Part shown: in pieces, positions 28,081 through 37,133 of the stretch
Layout: each line of letters begins with the position of its first letter
Numbering within the stretch: the first letter of the stretch is position 1
Translations under genes and position numbers: made by a program
The notes under the pieces: generated by a model
The model's database searches: none
What the model was told of the DNA's origin: nothing
What the model saw: the letters and a program-made list of their open reading frames with translations, nothing else
DNA from: Paraglaciecola sp. MB-3u-78
GTDB taxonomy: Bacteria > Pseudomonadota > Gammaproteobacteria > Enterobacterales > Alteromonadaceae
Length of the DNA stretch: 64,000 nt
Reading direction: 5' to 3'
NCBI RefSeq assembly: GCF_002835935.1
Contig: NZ_PJCF01000007.1
Location: 124,001 to 188,000 of the forward strand

Positions 28081-28146
28081 TGGTCTGTGTGATTGAATTC
28101 GAACCTACAATCCCTTCTCCTACAAGCTATAAAGGCCGCTACTAAG
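28081..28146 (-). pseudogene. Degenerate tRNA-Pro 3' fragment (left flank of island)
   Basis: 66 bases that align without gaps to the tRNA-Pro fragment at 36885-36950, with about 14 differences. The T-arm core TTCGAACCTAC and the D-loop end AAGGCCGCTAC are kept. It is in the same orientation as the fragments at 36.9-37.1 kb, and no 5' half is present. Confidence 0.65.
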
Positions 28147-28303
28147 CAATAATGACAAAGTCACTCATTGTAATAATTGTCAAATAACTCTATATATTTG
28201 GCTAAATTACGATGGGTGCCTTGTTAAAATACTGATAAAAATCAATATTTTGGGAGTTTAAATTGACTCTGGAAAAGATATTTTAATTTAGAAGATCTAA
28301 AAC

Positions 28304-28547
28304 ATGTTTAAAAAAAAGCAAGATGCAAAGCCTAAGGAGATAACATACGAACGAGTGAAAGGTTATTTCTTGTGGTTGATTGGCAAATATGGAGATTACA
28401 CATCAAACACCTTAATGCAAAAAATTCGGTGGATCCCCTATCGTAGATGCAAAACTTAAACAAAAAGCATTGAGACATTTGATTGGGCAAGAGTTCTCAT
28501 ATTCCGTTGCCAGTAAAGCGATTAGCCACTCAGGTAAAGAGGATTAA
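28304..28547 (+). pseudogene. Possible RecX-like remnant
   Basis: Two out-of-frame pieces. 28304 onward reads ITYERVKGYFLWLIGKYGDY and is followed by a stop; a shifted frame then reads KLKQKALRHLIGQEFSYSVA to a stop at 28547. They faintly resemble the N- and C-terminal helices of the recombination regulator RecX, with the middle missing. The match is weak. Downstream (28548-28628) is a further short reading frame (ARRNANQYLKAWGQIAGLIR) I cannot place. Confidence 0.3.
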
Positions 28548-28628
28548 CGCAATTCAGTATTTGCCAGAAGAAATGCAAACCAATATCTAAAAGCTTGGGG
28601 CCAAATTGCTGGATTAATAAGACGTTAA

Positions 28629-29064
28629 GAATTAGAGATATACTCATGCTAATTCTCAGTTACGATGCGGGTTTTGTTAAAATGTTGTAATTGGCGTCCT
28701 AATTAAAAGGGCTGATAAAATCACGGAGTTGAAGTAATAACACATCAATCCCTTTAATTATTTTTGAATAGTTTTAATGATCAAATGACTTGCCCCCTTA
28801 GCTATGACTGCTTAGCCGACCCCCTTAGCTGACCTAGGTGAGCACACCTCCCCCTGACGTAGCTGTGCCACTCACCCTAGGGTTTTACTCGGCATGTTAA
28901 TGAACAGTGAGACGTAACGAATTAACATAAATGAGTTAAACATATTGAATATATTCAATTGAAATACGCTATCTAAAGCGCATAAATGCTCAAAAATGAA
29001 TATCAATTATACACATGTCGCTGGTAAATCAGACTAGGGCTACAAAATTTTAAGGAATGCTCTT
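28629..29064. other. Non-coding region upstream of the broken efflux operon
   Basis: 436 bases, no gene. It includes a second copy of a short motif (TTACGATG...TTGTTAAAAT at about 28659) also present at about 28207, and several GCTGA/CCCCC-rich inverted bits around 28795-28885. Probably holds the old promoter of the efflux operon. Confidence 0.4.
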
Positions 29065-30165
29065 ATGTTTCAGGTAAAGCCCGTCATCCATTTAGCTGCC
29101 GTGCTAGGCGCTATCATTGTGTCCTGTAGTGGATTACTGGTTGCTTGCAGTCCAGCGCCACAGCAGCAGCAAGACCTGCAAGCTCGGCTGGTTAAAACGC
29201 AACTGGTCAGCGCTAAGTCTGGCAGCGACTGGCGGGAATTTCCCGGCATAATAGAGGCCGCGCAAACAGCTGAGCTGGGTTTTAGGGTATCGGCCAAGTT
29301 GGTCGAGGTTTCTGTGCGGGAAGGGGACAATGTCAATAAAGGCCAATTACTGGCCAAGTTGGATGATACCGACTATCAAACCAAGCTGCGCAGCACTCAG
29401 GCAGATTTTGATAAGGTCACTGCCGACTTTTAGCGGGGACAATCCCTGCTCAGTCAAAAGCTTATTGCCAAGTCTGATTATGATAAATTAGAGGCGCAAC
29501 ATACTTCATCTTTGGCTGCTCTGACTGGAGCCATTCAAAACGTTGAATATACTAATCTTAAAGCGCCTTTTGCTGGGACTATCGCCCGGCGTCATGTGGA
29601 CAACTTCGAAGATGTCTCTGCGGTACAGCCGATTTTCACCCTGCAAGATATGTCGTCCATTCATATCAAAGTTAATATCCCCGAAACGCTGATGATCTTG
29701 ATAAATACCAATGACAGGCCCAATGTGTTTGCTATGTTTGATTCAATCCCGAATCAACAATTCCCCCTCAGCTTTCAAGAAGTGGCGACGCAGGCTGACC
29801 CTGGCTCCAAAACCTTTGCGGTGACCTTCAAGATGCCAAGTGTAGCATCTTTCAATATACTGCCTGCCATGTCTGTAACCGTCAGAGGAAGCCTGCCTAT
29901 CCAAGATGACGCTCAGGCTTTGGGCGTCATCTTGCCGGCTCAGGCCCTGATTGAAACCAACGAAGGTCGCTTTGCCTTTGTGGTTGAAAACATCAATGAA
30001 AAGCTTGGTACAGTGAAACGTAAGACGGTTACCACCGGCCATATCACCGAGCGGGGACTGCAGGTATTAACGGGTCTTCAACAGGGGGACCGCCTTATCA
30101 TCGCGGGCATGAGTAAGATGTCTAATGGTATGACAGTGCGCCTGAGCGAGCAGTGGAACCGATGA
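29065..30165 (+). pseudogene. RND efflux adaptor (MFP) broken by an amber stop
   Basis: A lipoprotein-type adaptor (signal with lipobox LLVAC, mature start CSPAPQQ) that would be 366 aa. The frame is interrupted once by TAG at 29431, inside the coiled-coil hairpin (VTADF-stop-RGQSLLSQ). It then continues in the same frame through YDKLEAQH, the second lipoyl half (NLKAPFAGTIARRHV) and the beta-barrel to a TGA that overlaps the permease start. One CAG-to-TAG-type change explains the break. No functional adaptor is expected unless the stop is suppressed. Confidence 0.88.
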
Positions 30166-35961: not shown

Positions 35962-36103
35962 GCTGATCTACTTTTAGTTTGTTGAACGCAACTGTTATGG
36001 CTCTGGCTTTCAGCTAATCCACGATTATTAGAGATCAGCACCTTATCGTGGGGAATCATTATGTCTATGTGATTATTTTTAATAATTTAGGAGCGTTGAT
36101 GAA

Positions 36104-36532
36104 ATGAGAAAATTGCTTTTTTTAATGATGATTGTACTGTCGAGTTTGGCTGTGGCTGGGGGATAAAAATGGTGCCGATAAGAATATCTTCTTGGGGTTC
36201 ATCCATGATGGGATAGTCATTAATCCAAAGTGCATCTACCTTCTGCAGACTGGGATATCGGAAAGTTCTCAATATGGAATTATTGCTAAATCACTAATTA
36301 TTGATAGCTGCCAAGAGAGCAATATGTCCAGTTTGATTTCTCGAAGACAGAGAAAAAAGCAGTAAAGGTATTGACTAAACTTAGCGGTAGTTATGTACCT
36401 TGTTTCGACTCTGCAGAAACGATCGGAAATAAACTATTGGTAATTAAAGATGTTTGGGATAGTAGTGCACCGAGAGCCAATCAGTGCTCCTGTACGAAAG
36501 AAACTATCACCTTTGACATTAATGGTTTCTAG
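36104..36532 (+). pseudogene. Small exported protein, broken by frameshifts
   Basis: Three frames join into one protein. It begins with a signal peptide (MRKLLFLMMIVLSSLAVAGG), shifts frame to give DKNGADKNIFLGFIHDG and onward to QTGISESSQYGIIAKSLIIDSC, then shifts again near 36322 to QYVQFDFSKTEKKAVKVLTK. It ends SCTKETITFDINGF with a stop at 36532. At least two indels. The family is unknown; it would be a periplasmic protein of about 140 aa. Confidence 0.65.
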
Positions 36533-36884
36533 ATCTTAATATTGTGGAGTAGCGCAACACTTTACAGAATAGTCCGTGCTAACAGCGACACCTCCCCCCT
36601 TAAACTGTTGAACGATTGCAACATGCCACCGGCGGCACAACTCAGCATTGCGGGGCTAACAAATGATCGAAAAGCTGAAAAGTATAAAGGAGTCGAAGAA
36701 CTAAAGTTGATACCGAAACGTTATGCATTTATGTGACAACGGAAGCTCTATTTGTTGCGGAAAGTATCGTATTGCAAATGATTATTTGGAAGCGAAATTT
36801 CACAAGAACAGGGGGACACAAGTGGGGATACGTTAAAATAAATTATTATAGGGAATTACTATAGGCACTGTAGGCCTTTATAAT
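36533..36884. other. Non-coding stretch before the tRNA-Pro repeats
   Basis: A 64-codon frame (36542-36736) shows no family signal and lacks a ribosome site. No other feature was recognised. Confidence 0.45.
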
Positions 36885-36970
36885 TGGTCGGTGTGATAGG
36901 ATTCGAACCTACGACCCCTTTACCCCCAGCCAATGAAGGCCGCTACCAAGTTTGCTTTAATCTAATTAAT
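36885..36970 (-). repeat. tRNA-Pro 3' fragment, tandem unit 1 (86 bp)
   Basis: Contains the CCA end, acceptor 3' strand, T-arm and variable region of tRNA-Pro, then a disturbed anticodon arm with about four extra bases (CTTCATTGGCTGGGGG) and part of the D-arm. The 5' acceptor strand is replaced by AT-rich sequence. Followed by an almost identical copy exactly 86 bases on. Confidence 0.85.
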
Positions 36971-37056
36971 TGGTCGGTGTAATAGGATTCGAACCTACGA
37001 CCCCTTTACCCCCAGCCAATGAAGGCCGCTACCAAGTTTGCTTTAATCTAATTAAT
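36971..37056 (-). repeat. tRNA-Pro 3' fragment, tandem unit 2 (86 bp)
   Basis: Same as unit 1 apart from a single change noticed in the acceptor strand (GTGTAATAGG for GTGTGATAGG). It abuts the CCA end of the intact tRNA. Confidence 0.85.
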
Positions 37057-37133
37057 TGGTCGGTGTGATAGGATTCGAACCTACGACCCCTTCACCCCCA
37101 GCGAAGTGCGCTACCAAGCTGCGCTACACACCG
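37057..37133 (-). tRNA. tRNA-Pro (anticodon GGG)
   Basis: 77 bases on the minus strand with an encoded CCA. Acceptor CGGTGTG/CACACCG, D-arm GCGC AGCTTGGTA GCGC, anticodon stem CTTCG/TGAAG around CTGGGGG, T-arm GTAGG TTCGAAT CCTAT. All arms pair (one G-T). The loop places GGG at positions 34-36, a proline anticodon. Its 3' end is the site where two partial copies have accumulated. Confidence 0.93.

Follow-up and report, generated by a model that had tools for sequence, protein, structure and literature searches.

When a displaced 3' fragment of a tRNA gene, a standard mark for calling genomic islands, lies several kilobases from its intact gene, the question arises whether it is the scar of an integration or has another origin. 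This question was addressed here for a tRNA-Pro(GGG) gene in a 64,000-nucleotide stretch of Paraglaciecola sp. MB-3u-78 (hereafter the window; contig NZ_PJCF01000007.1, positions 124,001 to 188,000, i.e., C3:124001-188000 of the 6.48-Mb draft genome G000), where the gene is followed on its 3' side by two tandem units resembling its own 3' half and, farther off, by a third, diverged piece. An initial annotation of the window had interpreted these pieces as attL/attR of an old island. The present study found it probable, although with appreciable room for doubt, that the pieces derive from an inherited tandem half-tRNA array of one Paraglaciecola branch, the outer unit of which was stranded by later insertions; the proposed link between the tRNA repeats and the extra DNA is most likely wrong.

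The intact tRNA-Pro(GGG) was called as a single tRNA on the minus strand by both ARAGORN (37057-37133, with its 3' end towards lower coordinates) and Rfam (37060-37133, 59.3 bits), and the two 86-bp tandem units previously described beside it were also recovered on the minus strand, U1 (36967-37052) directly 3' of the tRNA and U2 (36881-36966) beyond U1. U1 comprises a spacer and a tRNA-Pro-like part from the D-loop to the CCA end, in which 4 nt are inserted ahead of the anticodon loop, and the tRNA-like part of each window unit spans ~65 nt starting at the D-loop. Alignment revealed that the units carry states in common that tRNA-Pro(GGG) is without, and Rfam gave no match to the window units. 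The pair had been regarded as a sign of repeated integration, which is not needed to explain it, because the two units form a tandem duplication with one difference in 86 positions (at 36895), and other tRNA genes are likewise followed by copies of their own 3' ends (see below).

For comparison, the tRNA-Pro(GGG) loci of 20 relatives (19 congeners and G023) were collected, and the tRNA was intact in all of them. With nhmmer, units directly 3' of the tRNA were detected in 7 of these 20 loci as well as in the window, at one to four copies (one in G001, G020, and G021, two in G003 and G019, three in G015, and four in G004), the window holding two beside the tRNA and the distant one. No unit was found beside tRNA-Pro(GGG) in the two remaining congeners (G006 and G008), nor in G017 as far as its 4.2-kb contig reaches. 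On a second G017 contig, also of 4.2 kb, a tRNA-Pro 3' end is accompanied by one unit with 90% identity over 84 bp to that of the window. This detached unit with its tRNA-Pro 3' end (G017:C178, L149:1268-1412) has no intact tRNA on its contig and lies upstream of a 415-aa ORF, which may encode an SbcD-type nuclease. In the metG tree of all 22 Paraglaciecola genomes, the nine unit bearers all fell inside one branch of 12 genomes (support 95/96), with 4 changes on the tree, a value as low as which was reached by 3 of 500 shuffles; scoring G017 as lacking units again gave 4 changes, with 11 of 500 shuffles as low. Moreover, the exact unit pattern matched four contigs across the GTDB species set, all of them from Paraglaciecola. 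The presence of units in seven other Paraglaciecola genomes and in G017, with the nine bearers in one branch, suggests that the array is older than the insert in the window, and one gain followed by several losses of units is the simplest reading. Two further features of the units were observed. Units 2-4 of G004 (L030:3259-3578) appeared hybrid-like, with a 5' half of the window type and a 3' part of a hairpin type, and the flanks of the window U2 and the G003 U2 resemble each other over ~16 nt, a likeness seen in only these two of 21 loci and too short to use. No description of such half-tRNA arrays in Paraglaciecola appeared in the accessible portions of the literature.

The third piece (28078-28146, minus strand) lies between a cytochrome c gene and a recX relic, and the earlier account of it as a diverged copy in the same orientation about 8.8 kb away holds. 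Sequence comparison identifies this piece as a diverged array unit rather than a fragment of the tRNA itself: it matches the nearer unit, U2, at 52 of 66 positions (14 differences), the intact tRNA-Pro(GGG) at 48 of 66, and the first unit of G015 at 51 of 66. In addition, it shows the unit state at all four internal diagnostic columns and includes the unit's own 5' half. Its best BLAST partner was a G015 unit (71.6 bits, vs 60.8 for the unit of its own genome). Chance similarity is ruled out by an E value of 1.6e-9 with the whole genome searched and by the unit-specific states.

The extent of the extra DNA was delimited by comparison with the closed genome of the relative G001. Colinearity between G001 and the window extends over dcd, the flavin reductase gene, the tRNA, and one unit as far as 36964; after ~280 bp in G001, it resumes from 21220 downward with a PaaX-like regulator, a ring hydroxylase, and beyond. 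The stretch 21221-36963 (15.7 kb), without counterpart in G001, is therefore extra DNA in the window, and since 36881-36963 is part of U2, its non-array part is 21221-36880. The predicted empty site, in which the cytochrome c side would be joined to the tRNA, was not what G001 displayed, since there the unit is followed by the PaaX-like gene at 21.2 kb. The 28-kb piece thus falls inside private DNA whose far end is near 21.2 kb, which does not support it as the island boundary that had been assigned to it. Except for the 28-kb piece, nothing in 21.2-36.88 kb matched the tRNA-Pro loci of the 20 relatives, and nothing on the 27.98-kb side matched them either. Relatives differ in what the slot beyond the array contains, although with some overlap. 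In the space from the units to a shared 463-aa gene, a relative of the window's next gene stands alone in G021, two other ORFs precede such a relative in G020, and G015 has a 631-aa gene related (73%) to one of the G020 ORFs. Hence, the island claim stands in part, in that the insertion is private to this genome among the loci compared and occupies a variable slot; the tRNA fragments as its attachment scars are not supported.

Collectively, these results are consistent with a model in which units would be gained and lost when the 3' half of the tRNA and its half-copies undergo unequal exchange or slippage, one complete tRNA always being left. The slot beyond the array holds different DNA in several relatives. 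In the present genome, ~15.7 kb would have entered, probably in several events that brought in the recX piece, an IS200-like remnant, pump genes, a chemoreceptor, and a protease, so that the outermost unit was cut off from the others at 28.1 kb and is now decaying there. The first unit may have come from the distal tRNA fragment of an old integrative element or from illegitimate duplication. The near-identical tandem pair and the variable copy numbers speak for unequal exchange, as do the 45-nt spacers, whose mean identity was 0.70 within genomes (31 pairs) vs 0.57 between genomes (269 pairs), although the within-genome value is inflated by the window and G021, where the stretches taken as spacers extend into the following unit. 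The two cases of a unit separated from its tRNA (the window and G017) fit insertion between array members.

Several other observations weigh against the inherited array with a stranded outer unit. Refreshing by exchange is weakly supported because the 3' halves reached a mean identity of 0.87 within vs 0.85 between genomes, and exchange itself is deduced from identity and copy number. The margin by which the 28-kb piece resembles a unit more than the tRNA is narrow (four positions), and mobility of the units could also account for the detached one in G017. Furthermore, three members of the 12-genome branch (G010, G012, and G014) are without units, so that losses are required. The insertion events in 21.2-36.9 kb may be read in more than one order and number, and the tRNA-Pro loci of the 20 relatives offered no donor of the insert.

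The gene content of the private stretch was also surveyed. Beyond the array, 36.1-36.85 kb has no long ORFs, and a ~127-bp repeat was identified at 35716-35842, with four listed copies in G001, one in G012, and a partial copy at C1:482067-482142 of the own genome, ~1 kb from the intact recX. An open gene (33763-35637, plus strand) encodes a 624-aa NIT-domain methyl-accepting chemotaxis protein (PF08376, PF00015), and an open 197-aa ORF (32713-33306, plus strand) has no Pfam match. Next come two pseudogenes on the plus strand, one of an RND-type efflux pump (30162-32327; PF00873), which has its start out of frame and seems to lack ~300 internal residues judging by its ORF and Pfam coordinates, and the other of a membrane-fusion protein (29065-30165; PF13533, PF13437), with one in-frame stop at 29431-29433. 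The recX relic (28282-28642, plus strand) has its intact counterpart at G000:C1:483060-483623, which matches the Pfam RecX models; the relic consists of two matching pieces, 92-96% identical to that gene, around an internal deletion the ends of which share ~15 bp. The description of most genes in the interval as broken is accurate for three of five (membrane-fusion protein, RND pump, and recX). Past the displaced unit, an open gene on the plus strand (27163-27984) encodes a 273-aa cytochrome c protein, with one distant match (32%) among 21 congeners. It is followed at 26500-27082 by a repeated sequence, at least 583 bp long, that includes an IS200-like (Y1_Tnp) fragment; copies of this repeat occur at C1:298328-298910 (98%), at C3:116122-116566 (99%, 445 bp), and in G001 (93%). 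A 1279-aa S8 subtilase with Ig-like repeats (22593-26432, plus strand) also lies within the stretch absent from G001. The G+C content was 47-50% over 29-33 kb vs 42-43% over 37-42 kb. Because a piece of the genome's own recX stands beside foreign-looking genes, the private stretch points to several insertion events rather than one element. On the upstream side of the tRNA, the genes of a flavin reductase, a dCTP deaminase, and an Mrp/NUBPL-type NTPase (37255-39739, minus strand) are common to many relatives; the dCTP deaminase gene was matched in 16 of the 20 relatives' loci, in two of them on the opposite side.

To place the array among other tRNA genes, the 3'-terminal 22 nt of 135 tRNA genes were compared with the 600 nt downstream, with other intact tRNAs masked and a threshold of at least 17/22. 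The set comprised G000, most of G001 (without its six rRNA-operon tRNA pairs), part of G007, and Escherichia coli tyrT/tyrV as a positive control; one entry (L112) is without its CCA end. Own-3'-end copies followed 23 of the 135 genes, two of them being the E. coli control, which leaves 21 of 133 in Paraglaciecola, some rows sharing one copy (tRNA-Gln in L060). In the control comparisons, the threshold was reached by 2 of 135 with 5' ends and by 3 of 4188 with the 3' ends of other isotypes. The copies involved tRNAs for Pro, Thr, Gln, Met, Gly, Phe, Trp, Val, and Leu. At several of these genes, the post-tRNA sequence recurs after the copy, including a hairpin and T run at tRNA-Phe and tRNA-Leu of G001, as expected if the duplicated piece is the 3' end plus its flank. 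Trailer repeats of the tyrT/rttR type are usually cited for one E. coli operon. This operon, tyrTV with rttR (RtT), is the closest known case, since there too a tRNA's own 3' end with a spacer is repeated in tandem directly 3' of the gene, and the window likewise has tandem repeats in the 3' flank ending in the 3' end of the upstream tRNA. In contrast, the E. coli repeats hold only about the last 19 nt of the tRNA in a long, hairpin-rich unit, far less than the tRNA-like part of the window units.

Other trailers with distinct architectures were also observed. Both tRNA-Trp genes of the genome (L070 and L071; G000:C34:346894-346967 and C45:111621-111694) have a similar ~250-bp hairpin-rich element 3', which ends in the last 18-20 nt of tRNA-Trp and has several GGA loops; we assume, as an idea only, that these loops recall CsrA sites. 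In G007 (L045), G014 (L047), G008 (L080), and G011 (L042), tRNA-Pro(GGG) is without a window-type unit; 3' of it stands a longer repeat that closes with ~19-20 nt of the tRNA 3' end and whose last hairpins resemble E. coli rttR by eye. The rttR-like hairpin-module pattern of the G007 and G014 Pro trailers had no match in a draw of 197 genomes from the order that included no known carrier, and homology is not claimed.

These copies bear on how the array began. A possibility that deserves tentative consideration, though it is short of being the expected one, is that an ancient integrative element at tRNA-Pro seeded the array, its distal fragment having shrunk and multiplied as the first unit without being the cause of the present insert. 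Copies at different tRNAs frequently start close to the anticodon loop (Pro units) or to the T-loop, ~18-20 nt from the end, the latter in Pro of G007, Gly, Trp, and E. coli Tyr, and such start points match the crossover subsites given in the part of the Islander description at hand (PMC4383910). However, the unit similarity extends back into the D-loop, and no element end or attP and, among the PF00589 matches listed, no integrase was found that would attest to such an element, the viral contigs having been compared by exact match.

An island made by an integrase between tRNA-Pro and 28.08 kb, with the 28-kb piece as distal attachment site, the units as relics of earlier integrations, and the integrase since lost, is unlikely. 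The available portion of PMC4383910 sets out criteria for tRNA islands and crossover subsites, the latter including the anticodon loop, and the window resembles such islands in having a downstream 3' fragment reaching the CCA end, in the same orientation, within 2-200 kb, outside conserved coding sequence, and with private DNA, unmatched in the relatives' tRNA-Pro loci, in between; furthermore, the unit and the tRNA agree best from the anticodon loop. The differences are nevertheless substantial. The units predate the insertion, all nine bearers being in one branch, and the four diagnostic columns mark the 28-kb piece as one of these units and not as a displaced tRNA end, whereas a displaced tRNA fragment should begin at the crossover and lack the unit's 5' half; both points argue against the tRNA 3' fragments as attL/attR. 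The private DNA continues past the fragment to 21221, and G001 joins tRNA and unit to 21220, so that the empty site of this relative does not correspond to the island endpoints. A six-frame search with PF00589 of the whole genome and nine relatives detected, among the matches listed, no integrase ORF in or overlapping the interval, in keeping with the initial annotation, and none within 50 kb of tRNA-Pro(GGG) in the 10 genomes as far as the contigs reach (only 27 and 40 kb in G020 and G021). The nearest listed matches were ~53 kb away in G003, 61 kb in the own genome, and 74 kb (broken) in G013, and the only Phage_integrase match listed on C3 (C3:221976-222473) is outside the window. An attachment site carried by a phage is ruled against by the viral contigs, none of which matched the unit pattern or the tRNA-Pro 3' half exactly. 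As a variant, integration may have taken place into a unit and not into the tRNA. Partial tRNA genes from mobile elements or CRISPR arrays, as described in the accessible part of PMC9897764, share with the window units their partial, non-canonical tRNA sequences, but they come from integrated elements of ~9-23 kb or a CRISPR spacer, whereas the window holds a tandem array of a genus branch.

It is still less probable that the units are a functional RNA from the tRNA trailer (a sponge, a decoy, or a structured sRNA, as compared with E. coli rttR, which is annotated as ncRNA), since, although own-3'-end copies follow several Paraglaciecola tRNA genes as well as E. coli tyrTV and the tRNA-Trp trailers fold into hairpin chains, a 16-unit alignment gave a covariation term of -0.09 kcal/mol, no Rfam family matched the units, a quarter of the genomes in the branch do without them, and at tRNA-Leu (L104) and tRNA-Phe (L089) of G001 the hairpin and T run stand between tRNA and copy and again after the copy, so that these copies lie beyond a likely terminator.

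An inherited half-tRNA array thus yields the same mark as an integration, and a tRNA 3' fragment can be taken for an integration scar only after comparison with relatives. A broader proposal, at present rather doubtful, is that tRNA genes of Paraglaciecola, for a wide set of isotypes (Pro, Gly, Thr, Gln, Trp, Phe, Met, Leu, and Val), build up tandem arrays from their own 3' portions time and again, through an exchange in which one complete tRNA is always retained, and that these arrays act as integrase-free recombination ports. If this were true, the slot beyond the arrays would gain and lose foreign DNA, 'tRNA hot spots' and fragment-bounded stretches would arise without an integrase, and island finders based on tRNA fragments would misread such arrays. 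Moreover, since tyrT/rttR-type trailer repeats accompany many tRNA isotypes of this marine genus, their origin and any function they may have are open to comparative tests.

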